This document shows positions 1,570-31,459 of a DNA stretch of 35,753 nucleotides, in pieces (position 1 is the first letter of the stretch; the number at the start of each line of letters is the position of its first letter). The notes beneath the pieces are model-generated. The model had not been told where the DNA came from. It did no database searches and saw only the letters and a list, made by a program, of their open reading frames with translations. The DNA comes from a virus: positions 1 through 35,753 of the IMG/VR virus record IMGVR_UViG_3300025889_000408, one strand, 5' to 3'. A program made the translations under genes and the position numbers.

Positions 1570-2213
1570 ACTACATAAATCTTGTTAAAGATGTATTAGT
1601 AAGACTCAGAGAGTCTGAAGTAGATAACGTTACGTCTACTCCTTACTCTAAGCTAATTGGTAAGTACATTAACGATGCAAAGAGATACGTTGAGGATGCT
1701 TACCAGTGGAACGCATTGTCTGAGACATTGACAGTCACTACTGCTAATGACTTGTTTAACTATGTAATGACAGGATCTGGTCAAAGGTTTAAGGTTATTG
1801 ATGTCATTAATAGTGAAGACGATATATTCTTAGAGTATATGCCTTTTACTAAGATGAACAATTTATTCTTGAATCAAAGTCCTCAAAAAGGTTCACCGAT
1901 GTACTACAACTTCAACGGTGTTGATTCTAATGGAGACACACAAGTTGACGTATATCCTATTCCTGATGGTGCTTATAATCTTTACTTTAATATTTATAAA
2001 CCTCAAGTTGCGTTGAGTGCTGATGCTGACGAAATAAAAGTACCGTCACATCCCGTCATTCTACACGCCTACGCAATGGCTGTAGCAGAGCGTGGTGAGG
2101 ACGCAGGACTAACGGCATCTGAAGCATTTGCTTTAGCTAACCAATCTCTAGCAGATTCTATAGCTATCGAGAATGGTAGATATCATGATGAATACGTCTG
2201 GCACACAGTGTAA
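1566..2213 (+). CDS. Head-tail adaptor (tail tubular protein A-like)
   Basis: A 215-residue protein. The N-terminal half is helical ([12 protein letters not shown], then [19 protein letters not shown]). The middle is beta-rich, and a C-terminal helix pair contains [18 protein letters not shown]. An N-terminal 'W..L' helix, a beta insert and a final 'A..ERGE' helix are typical of podoviral head-tail adaptors (T7 gp11/P22 gp4-type, gp6-like). These form the ring between portal and nozzle. Location fits: it lies directly before the nozzle-like gene, which begins at its last base. Assignment is by pattern and neighbourhood, without detailed residue matching. Confidence 0.65.
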
Positions 2214-3832
2214 TGGCTAAACAACTACTTACTACTACGATATCAGCACCGGGCTTTCTTGGTATTAACACTCAAGAGAGTAGTGTTGATCTAGCTTCTG
2301 GTTACGCACTAGAGGCATACAACTGTGTCATAGATAAGTTTGGTAGGATTGGTGCTAGAAAAGGATGGACTAGACAGAACACATCTACTAATGCTGATCT
2401 AGGTACTAATGACATTGAGTTCTTGTTTGAGTTACCAGAGACAGGTACAGTGTTTGCTGGCGGTAATAGTAAGATGTTTACATTAGCTAGTGGTGCTAGT
2501 ACATTGACTACAGCTATTAATACTACCGTTGCAGACGCAGCAGGAACAGGCACAACAGCTTATACGATTACAGATAACAACTGGTCAGCATCAAGCATTG
2601 TGTACGGTGAAGGACCGGATATCAAGCCTCATGGCTACTTCTGTCAAGCTGGTCACTTACCTCTAGTGTATCATCAACTAGGGTCTAGTCATGCTCATAC
2701 AGGTAGCTATGGTTTTAACTTACTTAGCGATGCTGGCTCAGTACCTAGTACTTATGCTTCAGCTTCTGACTTTAAACCTAACATAGTATTGGGAGCATAT
2801 GGACGTACTTGGTGGGCAGATATTACTAACGATGAGCAGACTGTGTACTTCAGCGCACTACTGGATGGATCAAACTTGTCTACCGGTGATTCAGGTTACC
2901 TTTCTTTGGTAGATGTATTTCCTAATGGAGACCAAGTAGTAGGACTAGCAGCACACAACGGTTTCTTAATTATCTTTGGTAAGAGAAACATAGCGATCTA
3001 CGCTAATCCTATTGACGTAACACAGTTGACGTTAGCTGATTTGATTACTAACGTAGGATGTATCGCAAGAGATAGTATTGTTAATACTGGTACAGATGTA
3101 ATGTTCTTGTCTGACACAGGGGTAAGAAGTATTGCTCGTGTTATTCAAGAAAAGTCAGCACCTATTAATGATATATCTTTTAACATTCGAGATGACTTAG
3201 TTAGCTTTGTAGATTCAGAGACTGACAAAGAAAGAATCAAAGCTGCTTACTATCCTCGTGATGCTTTTTATATTCTATCAGTACCTACATCTAAGTATGT
3301 ATTCTGTTTTGATTTAAGAGCTAGATTACAGAATGGAGCAGCAAGAGCTACAGTATGGGACAGTATTAATCCTACTGCTTTGCACGTTACTTACACAGGT
3401 AACTTATTACTAGGTAAAGCAGGATATATAGGTAAGTATGGTTCTCATCTTGATGATACTGCTACTTATAAGTTGCGTTACTACACCAATCACTTTGATT
3501 TAGGTAGTCCTACTAACTTAAAGTTTTTAAAGAAAGCTAACTTTACAGTGGTAGGTGGTGTAGGTCAGGATGTATTTGTTAAATATGGTTTTGATTATGT
3601 GGCTTCCTATAAAGATATTCGTAAGTCTTTGGTAGCTGGTAATGTGTCTGAGTACAGTATTGATGAGTATAGTATTGGTGAATACACAAACGGATTAGCA
3701 TTAGAAGAAGTACGTTCTAATCTTGGTGGTTCAGGTTCAGTAATACAGCTAGGGTTTGAAGCAGACATAAACCAGAACCCGTTGTCAATACAAAAGATAG
3801 ATGTTTACGTTAAAGCAGGTAAAACAGTTTAA
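2213..3832 (+). CDS. Tail nozzle / tail tubular protein B-like structural protein
   Basis: A 539-residue beta-rich protein. The N-terminus (SAPGFLGINTQESSVDLASGY, then NCVIDKFGRIGARKGW) is the signature of the large tail-tube/nozzle family in many podoviruses. The body has repeated Gly/Asp turns and short strands, as expected for a beta-propeller-like nozzle. One segment, SLVDVFPNGDQVVGLAAHNG, contains the 'G..V..L..H...L..F' motif common in this family. It immediately follows the adaptor gene. It is shorter than T7 gp12 and nearer P22 gp10 in length. The final 'VYVKAGKTV' strand is complete. Confidence 0.7.
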   Translation: MAKQLLTTTISAPGFLGINTQESSVDLASGYALEAYNCVIDKFGRIGARKGWTRQNTSTNADLGTNDIEFLFELPETGTVFAGGNSKMFTLASGASTLTTAINTTVADAAGTGTTAYTITDNNWSASSIVYGEGPDIKPHGYFCQAGHLPLVYHQLGSSHAHTGSYGFNLLSDAGSVPSTYASASDFKPNIVLGAYGRTWWADITNDEQTVYFSALLDGSNLSTGDSGYLSLVDVFPNGDQVVGLAAHNGFLIIFGKRNIAIYANPIDVTQLTLADLITNVGCIARDSIVNTGTDVMFLSDTGVRSIARVIQEKSAPINDISFNIRDDLVSFVDSETDKERIKAAYYPRDAFYILSVPTSKYVFCFDLRARLQNGAARATVWDSINPTALHVTYTGNLLLGKAGYIGKYGSHLDDTATYKLRYYTNHFDLGSPTNLKFLKKANFTVVGGVGQDVFVKYGFDYVASYKDIRKSLVAGNVSEYSIDEYSIGEYTNGLALEEVRSNLGGSGSVIQLGFEADINQNPLSIQKIDVYVKAGKTV

Positions 3833-3842
3833 GGAATAAGAG

Positions 3843-4514
3843 ATGTCAAACTATACAAAGGCAACTAACTTTACAGCTAAAGACAGTTTAACTACTGGTG
3901 ATCCGGGTAAACTAATTAAAGGATCAGAGATAGATGCTGAATACACAGCCATAGCTACAGCTATTACGTCTAAAGCTGATACTGCATCTCCTACGTTTAC
4001 TGGTACACCATCAGCACCTACTGCTTCTTTTGGTACAAGTACCACACAAATAGCTACTACTGCTTTTGTACAAGCTGCTTTAGCTGCTATGTATCCAGTA
4101 GGTTCTATATACACAAATGCAAGTGTTTCTACTAATCCAGCAACGCTACTTGGTTTTGGTACATGGACTGCTTTTGGAGAAGGTAGAGTAGCTATAGGTA
4201 ACGGTGGTGGATTTACTGCTGGTGCTACAGGTGGTAGCGCAGACGCTATTGTTGTAAGCCACACACATACATTAACCAGTGTTACTACTAATACTACTGG
4301 ATCACATAATCATACTTATACCAGACCTTCAGGAACAGCTCCTCAATCTGGATCAGCTACTCAGTGTTACGTTAGTACAACTACTGACAATACTGGCAAT
4401 GCTGGCGATCACTCTCATACATTGTCAGGGTCTACTGATAGTAGTGGTTCATCAGGTACTAATGCTAACTTGCAACCATACGTTGTTGTTTATATGTGGA
4501 GGCGTACTGCTTAG
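3843..4514 (+). CDS. Short tail fibre/collar-type protein with HxH metal motifs
   Basis: A 223-residue protein. Residues 1-75 are a Thr/Ser/Ala-rich shaft ending in a 'TTQIATTAFVQAAL' neck. Residues ~84-118 contain YPVGSIYTNASVSTNPATLLG and FGTW, the collar-domain signature of T4 gp12-like and many receptor-binding fibres. Three HxH motifs follow (SHTHT, SHNHT, DHSHT). In T4 gp37 and gp12, HxH motifs from three chains coordinate metal ions. The C-terminal 'NLQPYVVVYMWRR' strand is also typical. It probably forms a trimeric receptor-binding tip. AGGAATAAG supplies the ribosome site. Confidence 0.8.
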   Translation: MSNYTKATNFTAKDSLTTGDPGKLIKGSEIDAEYTAIATAITSKADTASPTFTGTPSAPTASFGTSTTQIATTAFVQAALAAMYPVGSIYTNASVSTNPATLLGFGTWTAFGEGRVAIGNGGGFTAGATGGSADAIVVSHTHTLTSVTTNTTGSHNHTYTRPSGTAPQSGSATQCYVSTTTDNTGNAGDHSHTLSGSTDSSGSSGTNANLQPYVVVYMWRRTA

Positions 4515-4515
4515 T

Positions 4516-4806
4516 GTGAAAATACCTTTAGTAGATTTGCCAGAGTTTGTTTTATACTTTGAAGAATACAACGGATATACTTTTATACATTGTGATATCA
4601 AAGTTAAGTGGACTAAAGAAGTAAAGAAGAAATTAAAAGAAGTATATAAAACAATAACAGATTCGTATAGTGAAAATATATTTGCTAATCACGAACAACA
4701 AGACAAGAAGCATGAGAAGTTTTTAAAGATGTTTGGTTTTGAGTATTTAAATTCATTTGTAGGTAAAGACAACAAAGACTACGATTTATATGTTTGGAGA
4801 AGATAA
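4516..4806 (+). CDS. Conserved hypothetical protein with GTG start (96 aa)
   Basis: The gene begins at GTG 4516, immediately after the collar-gene stop; the open frame extends upstream but there it only shadows the collar gene. The protein starts VKIPLVDLPEF and has a helical middle (KEVKKKLKEVYKTI) and a C-terminus (HEKFLKMFGFEYLNSFVGKD, then YDLYVWRR). The strand-helix-strand layout ending in a 'K.LK.FGF' element loosely recalls the C-terminal half of GNAT acetyltransferases. No acetyl-CoA loop (Q/RxxGxG) is visible. I remember similar proteins at this position in marine podophages. Function is unknown. Confidence 0.6.
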   Translation: MKIPLVDLPEFVLYFEEYNGYTFIHCDIKVKWTKEVKKKLKEVYKTITDSYSENIFANHEQQDKKHEKFLKMFGFEYLNSFVGKDNKDYDLYVWRR

Positions 4807-5849
4807 TGGGAATTGAAGCCGCAGTTATAGGTAGCGCAGTTGTTGGTGGAATGATGCAGAAAAAAGCTGCAGATAAACAAGCTGCTGCTATGCAACAGGC
4901 TTCTGCTGCTCAACTAGAAGCTAGTAGACAAGCTGCTGAAGAAGCACGATTTAGACCAGTAGGGATCACTACTAGGTTTGGATCAGCTACTCCTCAGTTT
5001 ACCGATGGAAGATTATCAGGTTACACTTATCAAGCTACACCTGAAGTTCTTGCTTTTCAAGATCAACTTGCTAGATTATATGGCGGATCTTTACAGCAAG
5101 CAGAACAAGCTACTGCTTTACAACCACAGTTCCAACAAGCAGCTACTGGTCTTATGGGACTAGGACAACAGTATCTAGCTAAATCTCCTGAAGAAGCAAG
5201 ACAAACATATCTACAACAACAGATGGATGTGTTACGTCCTTATGATATTGAGGAAGAACAACGTCTAGCTGCTGGTGTCTTTGGTCGTGGTCGTGGTGGT
5301 TTAAGTGTAGGTACTGGTGGACAACCAGAATTACAGGCTCTTGCTGAGTCACGAAGACGTAGAGACTTACAACTAGCTGCACAAGCAGAACAAGCTGCAC
5401 AGCAACGTACAAACTATGGTGCTGGTTTATTTACTACTGGTGCTGGATTACTAGGCACAGGATACCAGACTCAGACAGCAGCATTGTCTCCATTCATGAG
5501 TCAGTTTGGTGCTGCTCAACAACTAGAAGAAACAGCACAACAGCCTATGCAGATAGGTGCTGCACTTGGTTCTTCAAGTTCACAGTTTGGTGGTCAAGCT
5601 GCACAGATACTACAAGGTGGTGCAACTGCTGCTGCTAACTTACAGTCTCAAGCTGCTCAAGCTAAAGCACAAGGACTAGCAGGTCTTGGTCAAGGAATCT
5701 CTGACGTAGGTATGATGTACGGAATGAGACAACAACCTACAACACCAAACAATGCTACTAGAATGATACCGGGATTAATGGGGTATACATCTTCTGGTAA
5801 TCCTTATCAGTACGGTGCTAGAGGTACTGGTGGTGGATATAGTTCATAA
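4806..5849 (+). CDS. Internal virion/ejection protein, Ala-Gln-rich with N-terminal membrane segment
   Basis: The 347-residue protein begins MGIEAAVIGSAVVGGMM. Start 4806 is preferred over an upstream in-frame TTG because GGAGA lies 5-9 nt before it and the ATG overlaps the previous stop (TAATG). A small Gly/Ala hydrophobic patch at 5-17 is followed by an Ala/Gln-rich helical region (KQAAAMQQASAAQLEAS). Further Gln/Ala-rich stretches and a Gly-rich C-terminus follow. Podoviral ejection proteins (T7 gp14 and P22 gp7/gp16 types) have this composition and a membrane-active N-terminus. Position after tail-tube genes agrees. The assignment rests on composition and synteny. Confidence 0.6.
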   Translation: MGIEAAVIGSAVVGGMMQKKAADKQAAAMQQASAAQLEASRQAAEEARFRPVGITTRFGSATPQFTDGRLSGYTYQATPEVLAFQDQLARLYGGSLQQAEQATALQPQFQQAATGLMGLGQQYLAKSPEEARQTYLQQQMDVLRPYDIEEEQRLAAGVFGRGRGGLSVGTGGQPELQALAESRRRRDLQLAAQAEQAAQQRTNYGAGLFTTGAGLLGTGYQTQTAALSPFMSQFGAAQQLEETAQQPMQIGAALGSSSSQFGGQAAQILQGGATAAANLQSQAAQAKAQGLAGLGQGISDVGMMYGMRQQPTTPNNATRMIPGLMGYTSSGNPYQYGARGTGGGYSS

Positions 5850-5863
5850 TTAAGGAGTAAACA

Positions 5864-6913
5864 ATGGCTTCAATAGCGTCTTTATTTGGTCCAAGTGCAG
5901 AAGAGATTGTATACTCACAAAGGTTACAAGAACGCACAAGGCAACAGCAACAACTACAAGAAGCACTAGCAGCACAACAAACATTAGCTGGTCGTAACTA
6001 TTATCAAGCTGGTTACAACATAGCTAAAGGATTAGGTGGTTTGTTTGGTGTTAGTCCAGCTATAGAGCAAGATCCTAGAATAGCTAAAGCTCTTGAGATG
6101 AGACAAATCTTTGGAGACTTCTCTGCTCAAGATCTAAATGATCCTACTAAGCTAGAAGAATTAGCAGGTAAGTTAGTTGACAAGGGTTATATAGATCAAG
6201 GCTTCCAGTTGTTTGATAGGTCTATGGATATTGCTTCTAAGATTGCTGCAGCAAAACCAGACATTAAAAATGTAGATATTTATGTTGACAATAAAGGCAA
6301 TAAGTTTCACGGGGGAACTATTGACGGGCGTATAGTAGCTGTAGATCAGGAAACTGGAGACTATTATCCTGCTCCTCAAGGATCTTCTAAGTACGTAGAA
6401 CCTAAGAGAGGAACTGCTAAGACTCCCGGAGCTAATGAGTTAGGGTATGCTGAACAATCTTTAGATACCATAGGTGAAGATATAATGGACACCGGGTTGT
6501 TTGATTTTACAGGAATAGATAAAGGTTCTGAAGAATATGTTAACTTAACTAGAAGAATAGCTGCCGAGGCTCAGAGACTTATTGATGCTAATGAGGCTGA
6601 TGATATTATGACAGCTTCAGATATGGCTACTCTTAAAATTCTAGGAAGAGAACAACAGGTTCAAACTAGTCAGACATTTTCTAAAGAGACAGGATTAAGC
6701 AGAACTCCTAAAGAAAATGAAACTGTTATGATTGCTCCTGATGGTCATATGGTTATTGTTGATCCTACTGATACAGATGCTCAAGGTAATCCTAGAATAA
6801 AAGAGACAGGTTCTATAGCTATCTCTCCAGAAATAGCATCAAAGTATAGAGCATCAGCTTTAGCTGGACCTTCCTTACAATCTCAATCAACGCAAGGTTA
6901 CGTGATACCATAA
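5864..6913 (+). CDS. Internal virion protein, helical (349 aa)
   Basis: Residues 1-45 are a charged/Gln-rich helix (ERTRQQQQLQEALAAQQTLAG). A small hydrophobic patch (YNIAKGLGGLFGVSPAIE) comes next, then helical and mixed segments. The 'LAGKLVDKGYIDQGFQLFDRS' helix pair occurs around residue 105. A good AAGGAG site lies 6 nt before the ATG. It lies between two other putative ejection proteins, matching the three-gene internal-core cluster of T7-like phages (gp14-15-16). No enzyme motif was seen. The role is inferred from order and composition. Confidence 0.55.
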   Translation: MASIASLFGPSAEEIVYSQRLQERTRQQQQLQEALAAQQTLAGRNYYQAGYNIAKGLGGLFGVSPAIEQDPRIAKALEMRQIFGDFSAQDLNDPTKLEELAGKLVDKGYIDQGFQLFDRSMDIASKIAAAKPDIKNVDIYVDNKGNKFHGGTIDGRIVAVDQETGDYYPAPQGSSKYVEPKRGTAKTPGANELGYAEQSLDTIGEDIMDTGLFDFTGIDKGSEEYVNLTRRIAAEAQRLIDANEADDIMTASDMATLKILGREQQVQTSQTFSKETGLSRTPKENETVMIAPDGHMVIVDPTDTDAQGNPRIKETGSIAISPEIASKYRASALAGPSLQSQSTQGYVIP

Positions 6914-9809: not shown

Positions 9810-11462
9810 ATGGCTACTAAAAGAAAGAACAAACTGCAAATATTTATGGAACGCTACGGCATTGGCGAGAAAGGTTTAGTGCAGAAGCAAATAGAATCTG
9901 ATCCATACCTCAAGTGGATTAACTCAGGCATGAGATCTACTGACTATACGCCTGAGATAGCTGCTGCCAAAAGAAGGTTTATTGAAAAGCAACAAGGCGC
10001 AAAGCAACAACCTACATACAGAGACACAGGTAATGTTGTAAGGATAGAAACTATTGAGGATACTGTTCCTTCTGAAAGAGCTAGACCTAGACCAGTTACC
10101 GCAGGTGGTATGGGTGGTTATAGTCAAGGCGGTTTGTTTAAGTCAGACCGTGGCATGGGTGTAGTTCCAGATAATGTAGATACAACCAGTGCGCCACCTG
10201 ATGCACCTACTGATTTATTAGATGCTGCTTTGGATGAGAGTGATAGATACTTTGGTACACGCAGTCCCGGCGATGAAATGACAGCAGCGTGGCAAGCAGA
10301 GCAATTAAGAAGACGCAGAGCAGAAGCTCCATACGATTTAGTTACTGCTGCTGTTGGAAGAAATCCTGCTGTTGTTACTTCTGGATACCCAGCAAGAGAT
10401 TTCTCAAGAGATCCTTACTTAGGCGGTGCTGGAGCAGGTGGGTCAGAGATGACTCGTGCTGCTCAACGTCAAGCAGAATTAAACTCTGCTAGTATGGACA
10501 TGCCTAGAGGATTGTTTGGTAACACTTGGTCTACATCTACAGGCACTGCGCCATATAGTGCTGAAAGAAACTGGGGTCAACCTAATGTTTACATAGGTGG
10601 TGGTAGTCCCGGTGAAGAGATACAAGCTGAGATGCAAAGACAAGCTGCATTACAATCAGCAGGATATGATTTTAATCTACCATTAAACGGATCTACATAT
10701 CAAACAACTACAGGTACTGCTCCTACACCACCAGTAACTAACTGGGGACAAACAGCGTTCCCATACATAGGACAGAGTGGAGCAGGTGGAGAGGAGATGT
10801 CAAGAGCTATGGATGCTATGCCACCAGAACCACCAGCAATAGTTCAAGAACTACCGAAAGAAGCTATAGACTTTAGACGAAGACTAGGTGCTGGCTTTGG
10901 AGGAGGAAGTGGTGCAGATATACAAGCATCAAGAGCGCAGTTAGTTGAGCCACAGTTCTCTGAAAGATTTACTAATTACTTACAAAAAGTAGAGGGGTTA
11001 AAAACTGATACAGGTAAGACACCATTTAGATATGAGTCTGCTGAAGGCGGTAATGATACAGTAGGCATAGGACATAAACTTACAGACGCAGAAGTAAAGT
11101 CTGGAAAAGTATATGGGTATGATCTAAAGACATTAACTAAAGAACAAGTTCAAGATATTTTACAGAAAGATTTAGATAAAACTAAATCAGTTTTAAGTAA
11201 GAATCTTACAAACAAATATAAAAAATCTTTTGAAGACTTGACTCCTAAACAACAAGAGATGTTACTTGATCTTCAGTTTAATGTTAAAGATTCAGGAAAA
11301 GGCGGAGGCATCCTTGAGTTTCCTAAATTTACAGAAGCACTACTAAAGAATGATTTAGAAACAATGAGGAAAGAATACAAAAGATACTATACAGATCCTG
11401 AGACAAAGAAGAATGTATCTTTAGGTAGGAACAAAGACTTCTTTAATACATATCTAAAGTAA
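9810..11462 (+). CDS. Repeat-bearing virion protein with C-terminal GH24-like lysozyme
   Basis: A 550-residue protein in three parts. Residues 1-135 start with a basic segment (KNKLQIFMERYGIG echoes the end of the previous protein, ERYGIGG). Residues ~147-340 hold a tandem ~58-residue repeat. The C-terminal domain (~385-550) is a phage-lysozyme/GH24-type muramidase: the 'VEG' Glu is residue 395 and DTVGIGH is at 416-422. In T4 lysozyme the triad is Glu11-Asp20-Thr26; here Glu395 and Thr417 match, but seven extra residues separate them. No Asp sits at the Asp20 position (nearby acids are Glu409, Glu412 and Asp416). It may be a virion-associated cell-wall enzyme, or it may also act as the endolysin, since no other lysin is seen. 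Confidence 0.7.
   Translation: MATKRKNKLQIFMERYGIGEKGLVQKQIESDPYLKWINSGMRSTDYTPEIAAAKRRFIEKQQGAKQQPTYRDTGNVVRIETIEDTVPSERARPRPVTAGGMGGYSQGGLFKSDRGMGVVPDNVDTTSAPPDAPTDLLDAALDESDRYFGTRSPGDEMTAAWQAEQLRRRRAEAPYDLVTAAVGRNPAVVTSGYPARDFSRDPYLGGAGAGGSEMTRAAQRQAELNSASMDMPRGLFGNTWSTSTGTAPYSAERNWGQPNVYIGGGSPGEEIQAEMQRQAALQSAGYDFNLPLNGSTYQTTTGTAPTPPVTNWGQTAFPYIGQSGAGGEEMSRAMDAMPPEPPAIVQELPKEAIDFRRRLGAGFGGGSGADIQASRAQLVEPQFSERFTNYLQKVEGLKTDTGKTPFRYESAEGGNDTVGIGHKLTDAEVKSGKVYGYDLKTLTKEQVQDILQKDLDKTKSVLSKNLTNKYKKSFEDLTPKQQEMLLDLQFNVKDSGKGGGILEFPKFTEALLKNDLETMRKEYKRYYTDPETKKNVSLGRNKDFFNTYLK
10248..10803 (+). repeat. In-frame tandem ~58-residue repeats in the lysozyme gene
   Basis: The landmark 'Y-[FLI]-G' followed by a Gly-rich turn and 'E-M/I' occurs at residues 147, 203, 261 and 319, spacing 56, 58 and 58. 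Units share the order SPG/AGG-x-E-[MI], then Q...A.L.SA, then GN/GS-T-[WY], then TGTAP and NWGQ, then YIG. The last unit is partial. Expansion of an extended, low-complexity tether is likely. Confidence 0.75.
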
Positions 11463-11741: not shown

Positions 11742-13634
11742 TTAGATCTCGCAAACACCTGCTGTGCAAGCCAGTTGCTGTACGCCCTCAACGTTATCAT
11801 CATCCTCTATTAACTCATCCCAGTGTAACTTAGCTGGCATCTTCATTAATAGTTCCTCGTACTGTTCATAGGTACACTCCTCGTAAGGTGCTTGCTTGTA
11901 TGTACCACCATCATGTGGTAAGAATGAGACACCACTGATGTCATCAAAGTTCTTCCACACCCAAGCTCCTACCTCAACCCACTCGTCTTCCTTAACAGAG
12001 ATAGTTACTGACGGCTTGTGTTCACACCAATGTTTTTGATATAGCATCCACAAATCTAAATGCTCAATAGCTGTGAGGTCATCACGTAACGTAGCAGAGT
12101 CTGGTGCTTTCTTAGGGAAGCTGAACACCACAGTAGACTCTGGTCTCATCACACAGTCCTCTGCTGGTATACCTTTCTCTACCATGAAGGCGGTGAGCGG
12201 GTCTTTCTTATCTCCACGAACACGGCGTATATAGTGAAGACTATGTCGCGGATGAATACCACTGGCAGAATCAACAAGCTGACTGACAGTACCGCTAGGT
12301 TTAACACAAGTAATAGAGACAGAGTGGTTAATGCCAAGATCACCTGCAAGCTGTAGGTTCTCATCGATAGCAACCATTTTAAGTCGTTCAAGAAGAGATC
12401 TAGTCTGTTCAACATTTGCTCCTAACATTTTATTATCTAAGATACCAGTAAGAGATACGCCTAAGAGTCTCTCTTCCTCTGTGTTTCGTTGCCATATCTT
12501 ACGTAGGTATGGGAAGTGTGTCATCGTAGACTGATACGTACCAAGTATAGACGCTAGTCTAACCTTACGTTCAAGATCATAGATCGTATCTGATTCACGT
12601 ACTACGCACTCTGATAAATTACAAAACTGGTAAGGTCTCAAGATGATTTCCGAACACGGGTTAGTCCCAAACTCTTGCTCGTAATCCCTACGTCCTGTCT
12701 TCTTAGCTTGCTCTATTGCAGCTTCACGATTAAAGATACCACGTTCACCAGAGTGTGACTGATACAAGCTAGTCCACTCGTTAAGGAACTGACCTACGTC
12801 TGGCTTAGAATTATAGACAGCAGAGTTGTTAGCCAATGCACGTTGTGGATTCTCAGTCCACCAGTTACCTGTCTTAGCATGACGCATCTTGTCATCCTCA
12901 AGATCAGACAGTGAGATCATAGCTGATCTACGTACACCACCTACTACCACAACCTCTGCTACTTTACACATAATGTCGTGACACTCAAGCGTGGTTAGCC
13001 TACGTCCTGCTGCTCCCTTGAACTTACGTACCACAAACTCAAACAGTTCTTGTAATGGTTTAGGTCCACTAGCTCTACCACCAAAGGTCTTGAGTCTAGC
13101 ACCTGCTGGTCTGATCTTAGACAGATCCCACTTAGGTATCTCACCTGAGTATAGCAAGGCTATCACCTGACGTAGAGACTTAGCCCAGCCCTCCTTACTA
13201 TCAGACACAACCACAGTGGTAGCACTATCAAACATCTTCTCAGGTACATCTGGTAACTGGTCTACGTACTTATGCTCCACGCTAAACCCAACACCAGTAC
13301 CACAGAGTAGGATATACATCGCCTCATCAAAGGCTTTGGGATCATCCACTGGTAGGTAGCTACAGTTATACCCTGCCGTATTGTCCCTCTCAAGGGCTTT
13401 ACCGGCTGTCATAATAGACCGCATGGAGGGGACTACCTCTAGGTTTTTAATCGCCTCAGTAAGCTCCTCGTAGGTCTCAGAGGGTATTCTGTGGTTATGT
13501 TTAGACTCTAAGTGCTTCGCCATAAAGTCCATGTATCTATCAACAGTCTCGTCCCAGTCCTCTCTCCGTTGTTGATCGGGTAGGAATCTGGAGTACCGAG
13601 ACTTGGCTATAAACTCTTGGTATAAATCCATCAT
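11742..13634 (-). CDS. nrdJ: Class II (adenosylcobalamin-dependent) ribonucleotide reductase
   Basis: A 630-residue monomeric RTPR-like enzyme that converts ribonucleotides to deoxyribonucleotides, raising dNTP supply for phage DNA synthesis. Key residues fit the Lactobacillus leichmannii enzyme. Asn325-Pro-Cys327-Ser-Glu329 forms the radical-site finger loop. Cys338, 11 residues later, and Cys91 (in YNCSYLP) form the reducible pair. The tail has the C-terminal thiol pair (ACTAGVCEI, Cys-x4-Cys). No small subunit or activase is nearby, as expected for class II, so the host must supply B12. The start overlaps the upstream 53-aa gene by 4 nt (ATGA). No intein is seen. Confidence 0.96.
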   Translation of the reverse strand: MMDLYQEFIAKSRYSRFLPDQQRREDWDETVDRYMDFMAKHLESKHNHRIPSETYEELTEAIKNLEVVPSMRSIMTAGKALERDNTAGYNCSYLPVDDPKAFDEAMYILLCGTGVGFSVEHKYVDQLPDVPEKMFDSATTVVVSDSKEGWAKSLRQVIALLYSGEIPKWDLSKIRPAGARLKTFGGRASGPKPLQELFEFVVRKFKGAAGRRLTTLECHDIMCKVAEVVVVGGVRRSAMISLSDLEDDKMRHAKTGNWWTENPQRALANNSAVYNSKPDVGQFLNEWTSLYQSHSGERGIFNREAAIEQAKKTGRRDYEQEFGTNPCSEIILRPYQFCNLSECVVRESDTIYDLERKVRLASILGTYQSTMTHFPYLRKIWQRNTEEERLLGVSLTGILDNKMLGANVEQTRSLLERLKMVAIDENLQLAGDLGINHSVSITCVKPSGTVSQLVDSASGIHPRHSLHYIRRVRGDKKDPLTAFMVEKGIPAEDCVMRPESTVVFSFPKKAPDSATLRDDLTAIEHLDLWMLYQKHWCEHKPSVTISVKEDEWVEVGAWVWKNFDDISGVSFLPHDGGTYKQAPYEECTYEQYEELLMKMPAKLHWDELIEDDDNVEGVQQLACTAGVCEI

Positions 13635-29012: not shown

Positions 29013-29957
29013 ATGGCACTTGGTACTAATCACGTTACCCTTACTACTGCGGATAAATTTATCCCAGAAATTTGGAGTGACGAAATCATTGCAGCTTACA
29101 AGCAAAATCTTGTTGCTGCTAATCTGTTCTCTAAAATGTCTTTCAAAGGTAAGAAAGGCGATACGCTTCACATTCCGAAGCCTACTCGTGGTTCTGCTTC
29201 TGCAAAGTCTGCTTCTACTCAAGTTACACTAATTGCTGCAACTGAGTCAGAGCAACAAGTTCTTATCAACAAACACTATGAGTATTCTCGATTGATCGAG
29301 GACATCGTAGAAGTTCAAGCACTTGCTTCACTACGTAAGTTCTATACGGACGACGCTGGTTACGCTCTTGCTAAACAAGTTGATACAGACCTCATCAGGC
29401 TTGGTCGTGGTGTTAATGGTGGTGTTGTTGGTACTTCTGACTACGCTACTGCAGCTGCTTCAACCAACGCTTGGATCGGTTCAACTGGTGCAACGGTATA
29501 TAACTCTTCATCTTCAAACGCTGCTGCGCTTGGTGATGCTGGTATCCGTCGTTCAATCCAGAGACTTGATGACAATGACGTTCCAATGACGGATCGTTTC
29601 CTTATCATCCCACCTAATGTTCGCAACACTTTGATGGGTCTTAACAGATTCACAGAGCAGGCTTACACTGGTGAGGCAGCTGGTGGAAACGTTATCCGCA
29701 ATGGTCAGGTAGGTGACGTATATGGTGTTAAGGTATATGTAACTACCAATGCTGATACTGCTGCTGGTAACACAGCAACTGACCGTATCTGCTTGCTTGC
29801 TCATAAAGACGCTTTTGTTCTTGCTGAGCAAATGGGTGTACGTTCTCAGTCACAGTACAAGCAAGAGTACCTCGGAACTCTCTTCACCTCAGACATGCTC
29901 TATGGTGTTGCTGAGCTTCGTGACAGCTCTGCTGTTGCTCTAGCTGTTCCAGCCTAA
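29013..29957 (+). CDS. Major capsid (coat) protein
   Basis: A 314-residue coat protein, probably HK97-fold. N-terminus: TTADKFIPEIWSDEIIAAYK, then NLFSKMSFKGKKGDTLHIPK; mid: HYEYSRLIEDIVEVQALAS; C-terminal: VGDVYGVKVYVTTN. The 'fipeiWs.ei.....n.v.a......f.gkkGdt..Ip' beginning is characteristic of N4-gp56/T7-like coat families. It follows the scaffold gene, with GAAAGGAAAT before the ATG. Codon use is more C/G-ending than in neighbours, suggesting high expression. A strong terminator follows immediately. Confidence 0.9.
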   Translation: MALGTNHVTLTTADKFIPEIWSDEIIAAYKQNLVAANLFSKMSFKGKKGDTLHIPKPTRGSASAKSASTQVTLIAATESEQQVLINKHYEYSRLIEDIVEVQALASLRKFYTDDAGYALAKQVDTDLIRLGRGVNGGVVGTSDYATAAASTNAWIGSTGATVYNSSSSNAAALGDAGIRRSIQRLDDNDVPMTDRFLIIPPNVRNTLMGLNRFTEQAYTGEAAGGNVIRNGQVGDVYGVKVYVTTNADTAAGNTATDRICLLAHKDAFVLAEQMGVRSQSQYKQEYLGTLFTSDMLYGVAELRDSSAVALAVPA

Positions 29958-29976: not shown

Positions 29977-30011
29977 CTCCCCGGATCTAACAAGGTCTGG
30001 GGAGTTTTCTT
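29977..30011 (+). terminator. Rho-independent terminator after the coat gene
   Basis: CTCCCCGGATC pairs with GGTCTGGGGAG (11 bp with two G-U pairs) across a 6-nt loop TAACAA, followed by TTTTCTT. It lies 20 nt after the coat stop. It would end or reduce transcription before the pqqA-like gene and fibres. Confidence 0.9.
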
Positions 30012-30022
30012 AGGAGAACTCA

Positions 30023-30094
30023 ATGTGGTCTAAACCTCAATATACGGAAGTAAGATTTGGTTTTGAAGTAACAATGTATATTGCTACTAAGTAA
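30023..30094 (+). CDS. pqqA: PqqA-like coenzyme PQQ precursor peptide (23 aa)
   Basis: The 23-residue peptide begins MWSKPQYTEVRFGFEVTMY and ends IATK. PqqA is the ribosomal substrate from which pyrroloquinoline quinone is made; its Glu and Tyr are cross-linked by the radical-SAM enzyme PqqE with chaperone PqqD. Here the hallmark Glu15-Val-Thr-Met-Tyr19 is in place, preceded by Arg-x-Gly-Phe, with the N-terminal Trp-x-Lys-Pro shared with Pseudomonas-type PqqA. Length also fits. AGGAG lies 6 nt before the ATG. No pqqB-E is nearby, so host enzymes would be needed. It lies between the coat terminator and a tail-fibre gene. Family match is strong; phage function is inference. Confidence 0.85.
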   Translation: MWSKPQYTEVRFGFEVTMYIATK

Positions 30095-30103
30095 GGAAGT
30101 AAT

Positions 30104-31459
30104 ATGGCTATATGGAGAGGTGCTGGAGGTCCGGGTGATGCAACCACTGATGCTGCTAATGAAGCTAGTGTAGCGTCTACCAAAGCTGCTGAAGCTGCTG
30201 CGTCTGCTACTGCTGCTGCAGGATCAGCTACATCTGCTGCTAACTCAGCAACCAATGCTGCAAACTCTGCAACTGCTTCTGCATCGTCAGCTAGTAGTGC
30301 TTCTAGTTCTGCTACATCTGCATCTTCTTCTGCCTCTTCTGCTTCTACATCGGCTTCTAACGCATCTTCATCTGCTACTGCAGCGTCAACTGCTCAAGGT
30401 TACGCTGAAGAGTGGGCTACTAAAGCTGAAGACAGCTTAATTAGCACTGCTGCAGGTGGTGATGGATCTACTGATTACTCATCTCTACATCATGCTGCTA
30501 AGTCTGCTGCTAGTGCTAGTGCTGCAGCTAGTTCTGCTAGTGCTGCAGCGAGTTCAGCTTCTGCTGCTCAGACAGCACAGACAAATGCTGAGACCGCAGA
30601 GACTAACGCTGAGACAGCACAGACTGCTGCTGAAGCTGCAAGAGACGCTGCTCTAGCTGCTCTTGATAACTTTGATGATAGATACTTAGGTGAGAAAGCT
30701 AGTGATCCCACATTAGATAATGATGGTGATGCGTTAGTTGCTGGTGCATTATATTTTAATACTTCTTCAAACATAATGAAAGTCTACACAGGCTCTGCTT
30801 GGGTAGCTGCTTATGTATCTGGTAGTATTAATATTGATAGTATTACTGATGTAACCATTACTTCTGTAGCTGATAATGAAGTATTGGCTTATGATAGTAC
30901 ATCAAGCAAATGGATTAATCAAACTGCTGCTGAAGCAGGTCTAGTAGCAACTAGTGATATTGGCTCAACAGTACAAGCCTACGATGCTACAATTCTAGTT
31001 GACGCTGACATTGGCGTTAATGTTCAAGCATACTCTTCTGTTTTACAGAATACTACAGCTTCCTATACTATTGCTGAAGAAACTAAACTAGCTGGTATTG
31101 AGACTGCTGCTGACGTAACAGATGCTACCAATGTAGCTGCTGCTGGTGCAGTAATGGATACAGACTTCTCAACTAATGGGTTGATGAAGCGTACTGGTGC
31201 TGGCACATACACAATTGTTACTGATAACTCTAGTGAATGGGATACAGCTTACTCATGGGGCAACCACGCTAGTGCTGGTTATCTAACTAGTTACACTGAG
31301 ACAGATCCTGTTTACACAGCATCGAGCTGGTACACAACAACAAACAATTCAACTAATTGGGATACAGCGTATGGTTGGGGAGATCACTCAACTGCTGGTT
31401 ATGTAACTTCAGCAGATCCTGCTGGTACGGCTGTAGCAATGGCAATCGCACTGGGATAA
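30104..31459 (+). CDS. Tail fibre protein with Ala/Ser-rich coiled-coil shaft
   Basis: A 451-residue protein. Residues 1-100 and 130-190 are Ala/Ser/Thr-rich with heptad-like repeats (SSATSASSSASSASTSASNA), typical of trimeric fibre shafts. A module at ~197-240 (RYLGEKASDPTLDNDGDAL, then ALYFNTSSNIMKVYTGSAW) is common in phage fibres. The C-terminal region carries repeats with WDTAYSWGNHASAGY and WDTAYGWGDHSTAGY, seen in marine phage fibres. AAGGAAG lies upstream of the ATG. It starts the adhesin cluster. Confidence 0.85.
   Translation: MAIWRGAGGPGDATTDAANEASVASTKAAEAAASATAAAGSATSAANSATNAANSATASASSASSASSSATSASSSASSASTSASNASSSATAASTAQGYAEEWATKAEDSLISTAAGGDGSTDYSSLHHAAKSAASASAAASSASAAASSASAAQTAQTNAETAETNAETAQTAAEAARDAALAALDNFDDRYLGEKASDPTLDNDGDALVAGALYFNTSSNIMKVYTGSAWVAAYVSGSINIDSITDVTITSVADNEVLAYDSTSSKWINQTAAEAGLVATSDIGSTVQAYDATILVDADIGVNVQAYSSVLQNTTASYTIAEETKLAGIETAADVTDATNVAAAGAVMDTDFSTNGLMKRTGAGTYTIVTDNSSEWDTAYSWGNHASAGYLTSYTETDPVYTASSWYTTTNNSTNWDTAYGWGDHSTAGYVTSADPAGTAVAMAIALG

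Follow-up and report, generated by a model that had tools for sequence, protein, structure and literature searches.

The window, by which we mean the whole 35,753-nucleotide stretch of viral DNA analysed here, carries a 72-base ORF with an ATG start and a TAA stop between its major capsid protein gene and a tail-fibre gene (Table 1). A preliminary description, made from the sequence alone, had claimed a 23-residue gene with AGGAG at the correct spacing and a match to the PQQ precursor peptide PqqA. The ORF and its spacing are as described, and the residues had been named correctly: the match runs the whole length of the peptide and includes Trp2, Pro5, Arg11, Gly13-Phe14 and the Glu-x3-Tyr motif, with Glu15 and Tyr19 at the spacing of the Glu/Tyr pair that is cross-linked by PqqE. 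The family profile search proposed in that description placed the peptide above both curated cut-offs, at 44.8 bits for Pfam PF08042 (cut-off 21.1; E 1.1e-11) and 46.1 bits for NCBIfam TIGR02107 (cut-off 20; E 2.9e-12). Against the six-frame translation of the window, PF08042 gave this ORF as its single match (E 4.0e-12), and it found nothing over cut-off in any of 14 control genomes. PHROGs held no family matching the peptide, and a PDB search with it returned only a chance match to titin. Judged by its profile scores and residues, the ORF is a true PqqA gene.

Table 1. Features at the pqqA locus of the window, and the predicted riboswitch of related loci
Feature	Position	Strand	Basis
Major capsid protein gene, 5′ of pqqA	29013..29957	+	PHROG 267 major head protein, E 1.2e-49
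Terminator-like hairpin with T-rich tail, between capsid gene and pqqA	29977..30004	+	12 pairs; fold z -2.53
AGGAG, Shine-Dalgarno-like	30012..30016	+	6 nt upstream of pqqA ATG
pqqA, 23-residue PqqA precursor peptide MWSKPQYTEVRFGFEVTMYIATK	30023..30094	+	ORF translation, family profiles
Tail-fibre gene, start 9 nt past pqqA stop	30104..31459	+	PHROG tail fibre families, best named E 1.5e-27
RF01739 between capsid gene and pqqA	L249 3250-3296, L301 3124-3170, L258 6551-6598, L011 9846-9893 and 10 more loci		53-57 bits, gathering cut-off 35

The gene is embedded among viral genes, in the order major head, pqqA and tail fibre, and phage-family terminase, portal, DNA polymerase, primase/helicase and ribonucleotide reductase genes are present in the window. 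On the minus strand, positions 11742-13634 encode a relative of adenosylcobalamin-dependent ribonucleotide reductase that scores 318 bits, below the RTPR equivalog cut-off of 340, yet fits PHROG 367. The reported absence of pqqB-E from the window was borne out by tblastn, the best match having an E value of 0.15, and no match to a PQQ dehydrogenase was found there. The gene had also been placed just behind a coat-gene terminator in a late, highly transcribed area. The capsid stop (29957) is indeed separated from pqqA by a terminator-like hairpin, whereas high transcription has not been shown. The hairpin alone is weak evidence, as one was found where shuffling led us to expect 0.8, and a gene situated directly behind it may be transcribed only by read-through. 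A predicted fold at 30002-30021 pairs the Shine-Dalgarno region of pqqA with the hairpin tail; its conservation in the sibling locus L012 was not obvious.

At least 583 IMG/VR stretches encode a PqqA relative (583 of 600 candidates). A pattern built on the N-terminus alone retrieved at least 120 stretches, 119 of which were read; among the matches listed, 117 of the 119 ORFs were complete, all with 23 residues, and the other two ran off contig ends. AGGAG stood within 20 nt upstream of pqqA in 83 of these 119 viral relatives and AGGA in 31. The preliminary description had named conservation of Glu15 and Tyr19 in relatives as the point on which its reading could be refuted. Neither residue was forced by the search, and both were kept in all 117 complete copies among the matches listed, as well as in all 23 copies reached through the capsid gene (best 80 capsid relatives). 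A separate GME-type pattern found 29 IMG/VR stretches, all with short PqqA-like ORFs and some of the alphaproteobacterial kind; these are not evidence of conservation, because the pattern itself forces the Glu and Tyr. PqqA of alphaproteobacterial type (GMEVTSY/GMEITSY) occurs on the viral contigs L323, L336, L320, L327, L328, L331 and L338, one contig being 266 kb long, which suggests that phages of alphaproteobacteria also carry pqqA.

The 184 viral 23-mers represent 78 different peptides and 168 different coding sequences; the commonest of these peptides accounts for 35 sites, with 34 DNA versions. Peptide positions 6-8 and 20-23 are variable. Among the viral genes, in a set partly chosen by the core motif, pN/pS is 0.18, from which we infer that purifying selection is acting on the viral PqqA peptide. 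The profile scores, the E value over the window and this ratio rule out a chance ORF. Host contamination of the viral set was examined by tblastn with Acinetobacter PqqB-E, which matched only two of 203 loci (L008 and L009, rejected below) and none of 99 further viral loci; that the test is sensitive is shown by the bacterial loci, 20 of 36 of which gave a PqqB match with the same queries.

The capsid relatives of the window show how the gene comes and goes. This set consisted of the best 80 loci, 11 of them too short to judge, and absence here means absence from the stretch at hand (between 400 nt and 6 kb of sequence past the capsid gene), not from the genome. At a capsid identity of at least 77% there were 36 loci, 30 of them evaluable, of which 23 had pqqA after the capsid gene and seven did not; below 77%, none of the 39 evaluable loci (of 44) had it in the stretch. 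Six of the seven close relatives without the gene (L245, L246, L247, L253, L306 and L241) have the capsid gene, the hairpin and then the tail-fibre gene directly, and the seventh, L256, has a different gene at that place. A profile search of the best 80 sibling loci found no decayed copy of 12 bits or more. The six siblings thus miss just the insert, which, together with the lack of decayed copies, indicates that pqqA is gained and lost as a unit and does not drift.

Repeated gain is indicated by several observations taken together. After de-duplication, the 191 viral pqqA sites fall into 46 gene neighbourhoods, 18 with two or more loci; the neighbourhoods were formed by single linkage, and contig ends inflate the number with a single locus. 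Distant capsid relatives outside the 80 (L066 and L054) have pqqA elsewhere in the structural block. When a 4.7-kb stretch of phage MEP402 was used as a query, its best DNA match to P19250A, MEP301, Venkman and four Melnitz strains was pqqA only (query positions 618-712). The gene recurs in unrelated phages. That it is optional among siblings could be taken to mean that it is a neutral hitch-hiker, or no gene at all, a reading to which we give almost no credence: it is at odds with the strength of the profile match, with the excess of synonymous over amino-acid change, with the lack of decayed copies and with the 18 neighbourhoods of more than one member.

A tblastn search of 50,697 public phage records with the window peptide matched 12 records, of which 10 were counted. 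The two that were not, CAKLQF020000010.1 and CAKLQH020000055.1 ('Acinetobacter phage MD-2021a', the L008 and L009 above), hold a full pqqABCDE operon, which in L008 adjoins fur, ppk and other host genes, and were taken as chromosomal contigs. The credible carriers are Venkman, four strains of Melnitz, MEP301, MEP401, MEP402, P19250A and the uncultured ctXG6705. Hosts are named for nine of the ten, and all nine are methylotrophic Methylophilales. Searches with two other PqqA types added no public phage record. The methylophages MEP431-434 and HIM624-A are listed in the taxonomy and were absent from the phage-collection matches, and we make no claim about all methylophages.

The suspicion that such a gene is easily missed by annotation proved justified, since none of the six phage records that we opened annotates pqqA on its own strand; four have no feature there and two only an antisense ORF. 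We attribute this to the shortness of the gene. The antisense ORFs annotated across the true pqqA are those of Melnitz (L004 2961-3056, minus strand) and ctXG6705 (L003 2067-2195, minus strand).

A phage that brings only the precursor depends on its host for the rest of the pathway. No PqqE over cut-off was found in 50 whole viral records (44 from IMG/VR and six phages), two of which gave weak radical-SAM matches, so host enzymes would have to process the phage peptide. A PQQ alcohol dehydrogenase exceeded its cut-off in a single one of the 50, the 72-kb record L074, which also has pqqA (608 bits against 480). In L074, positions 2103-6897 code for PqqA, a 624-aa PQQ dehydrogenase that we ourselves label XoxF-like, a 946-aa molybdopterin protein resembling formate dehydrogenase, and a protein with curlin repeats, possibly a viral C1 module.

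The bacterial counterparts bear on what the peptide is for. Of 399 genomes from a single bacterial order, 76 gave a match to the commonest phage peptide, and in four a chromosomal PqqA was identical to it; in the same search, chromosomal pqqA reached up to eight copies per genome. The preliminary description had offered two uses for the peptide, as a substrate for host enzymes or as a decoy. The four identities lead us to favour substrate supply, and the decoy remained without support. As a competitive inhibitor, the peptide would occupy PqqD/PqqE, lower host PQQ and slow competing periplasmic metabolism, and it is true that the phage peptide would also bind these proteins and that the viral records searched lack PqqE. 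A decoy, however, requires binding and not chemistry, yet Glu15 and Tyr19 are invariant in both sets of relatives examined above; the commonest phage peptide is a chromosomal PqqA; and L074 also brings a PQQ dehydrogenase, which is sensible only if PQQ is wanted. We therefore regard this use as improbable.

Which host the window phage infects is not settled. The nearest bacterial PqqAs to the window peptide (19 of 23 residues identical) come from MAGs of Betaproteobacteria/Burkholderiales, several of them marine by title, and are only a hint to the host. PqqE and PQQ alcohol dehydrogenase were over cut-off in all 12 bacterial genomes chosen for near PqqAs. One MAG contig with pqqA-E, L212, bears the title 'Bordetella parapertussis' (isolate TH-08apr19-40), probably in error; its PqqA is betaproteobacterial and of the environmental type. 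No tRNA was found in the window, and neither its terminase nor its capsid is close to that of any named phage, the capsid being at most 37% identical to those of known phages, cyanophages first. We infer a PQQ-making, probably methylotrophic, beta- or gammaproteobacterium.

We consider it probable that the window ORF is the stand-alone pqqA of a podovirus-like phage and serves as an auxiliary metabolic gene supplying PQQ substrate, its expression, processing and benefit to the phage being inferred. Once the phage had made the PqqA peptide during infection, the cross-link between Glu15 and Tyr19 would be introduced by PqqD/PqqE of the host, whose PqqF/G, PqqB and PqqC would then complete PQQ. 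Because one PqqA is consumed for each PQQ, a 72-base gene may be the cheapest way to sustain supply of the cofactor. The cofactor would go to PQQ-dependent dehydrogenases of a cell that is being drained by the phage; in methylotrophs the enzyme concerned would be methanol dehydrogenase. The accessible part of PMC10906245 describes PqqE joining Glu to Tyr in PqqD-held PqqA, the linked peptide then being cut and oxidized to PQQ, and gives Glu16/Tyr20 as the cross-linked residues of Methylorubrum PqqA. It is conceivable, if very improbable, that the phage peptide yields some PqqA-derived product other than PQQ, or reuses the PqqA sequence as a signalling or structural peptide; no biochemical test exists and seven positions vary, but the family match is whole-length and includes the reacting residues.

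Published work supports substrate supply and also sets limits to it. A methylotroph strain has five pqqA copies, a stand-alone copy being among the two most expressed, and a Gluconobacter extract turned added PqqA into PQQ at 70-80% in other work reported by the same paper (PMC9851590, as far as its text was accessible). Expression of a stand-alone pqqA and conversion in extract make it plausible that a phage with pqqA alone raises or holds PQQ through host enzymes. In Acetobacter, extra pqqAB increased PQQ by 29% and extra pqqABCDE increased it eightfold (PMC7936290, available text). As the effect of pqqAB was only 29%, PqqA supply may not limit PQQ, and the gain to the phage may be modest.

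The phage copy might instead mainly compensate for the disappearance of host pqqA mRNA once transcription in the host has been shut off, so that PQQ would be maintained, not boosted. A replacement role of this kind has been proposed for psbA in cyanophages. Each locus has a single phage copy (212 sites in 212 loci), and streamlined hosts hold xoxF as their top transcript, according to the part of PMC5120137 available to us; both are compatible with replacement. There are no data on host shut-off for the window phage, though, and this role is hardly separable by sequence from the supply of substrate that we prefer; we think it unlikely, without dismissing it.

In some relatives the gene has a putative regulatory element upstream. 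The glutamine riboswitch family RF01739 was found in 15 of 38 sources scanned (3/4, 11/20 and 1/14 per scan), and in 14 sources, which lie in a single branch of the capsid relatives of the window, about 105-110 nt separate the end of the predicted riboswitch from pqqA. After the predicted riboswitch comes a short ORF (MTWQDFCRKREL... in L249), which ends near pqqA. RF01739 was found neither in the window nor in the nearest relatives scanned (L010, L012, L018, L020 and L243), nor in four scanned siblings without pqqA (L245, L246, L247 and L253). In the 102-kb viral record L031, a glutamine riboswitch (10148-10195) lies after pqqA and is followed by a freshwater-2 RNA (10654-10730). For Melnitz, a glutamine riboswitch has already been published, on its ssrA gene (PMC9004378, accessible text).

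Taken together, our data suggest that phages of methanol-eating bacteria keep host methanol oxidation going while they multiply. With only slightly better than even confidence, we go further and propose that pqqA is a convergently acquired hallmark of methylotroph phages: tailed phages with no relationship to one another, ranging from podovirus-like (35 kb) to T4-like (140 kb), would each carry one stand-alone, 'substrate-only' copy that doses host PQQ and methanol oxidation, and in one branch of the window's relatives a predicted glutamine riboswitch would tie PQQ supply to nitrogen state; on the same proposal, the gene would mark methylotroph hosts in metagenomes, including those of uncultured phages. 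Should phages indeed dose PQQ, methylotrophs that abound in the sea and in fresh water would have their methanol oxidation steered directly by infection, which would be a link in the C1 carbon cycle. The question is testable now, since phage-host pairs are available in culture (Venkman and Melnitz on H5P1, MEP301, MEP401/402 and P19250A).

In the accessible text of four methylophage papers (PMC9004378, PMC8163748, PMC10580990 and PMC8024684), a term search found no mention of pqqA, and the words pqq and pyrroloquinoline appeared in a single passage, which concerns an additive to the medium. We did not find the recurrence of viral pqqA described in the open-licence literature; most subscription journals were outside this scope. 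Viral pqqA itself is already in print (PMC7678222 and PMC13188868), and, as far as these partly accessible sources allow a judgement, its recurrence and the near-total lack of annotation look new, and phage pqqA is far more general than printed accounts describe.

The peptide of the window matches the PqqA family (PF08042, TIGR02107) over its whole length, but it is encoded on a phage genome, alone, with pqqB-E not in the record. The isolated methylophages Venkman, Melnitz, MEP301, MEP401, MEP402 and P19250A likewise have a stand-alone PqqA of 23-24 residues, in other gene neighbourhoods and 65-70% identical to the window peptide. Cyanophage psbA and other auxiliary genes of energy metabolism set a precedent for a phage supplying one fast-consumed component of host energy metabolism; pqqA differs in that what it would supply is neither an enzyme nor a reaction-centre protein but a peptide substrate that is sacrificed. 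Virus-encoded pqqA, pqqE and pqqD of reservoir sediments have been reported as phosphate-solubilizing auxiliary genes (PMC13188868, 2026); pqqA is likewise a viral auxiliary gene there, but among phosphorus-cycling genes and with no link to methylotrophs in the available text. Another viral pqqA is that of the Lake Baikal T4-like population VP_266, a predicted Methylophilaceae phage, which was proposed to serve methanol dehydrogenase (PMC7678222, accessible part). VP_266 is a large T4-like phage that also brings methanol dehydrogenase, and is paralleled by L074 with its pqqA and PQQ dehydrogenase, whereas the window, podovirus-like and 35.8 kb long, has pqqA without a dehydrogenase match.
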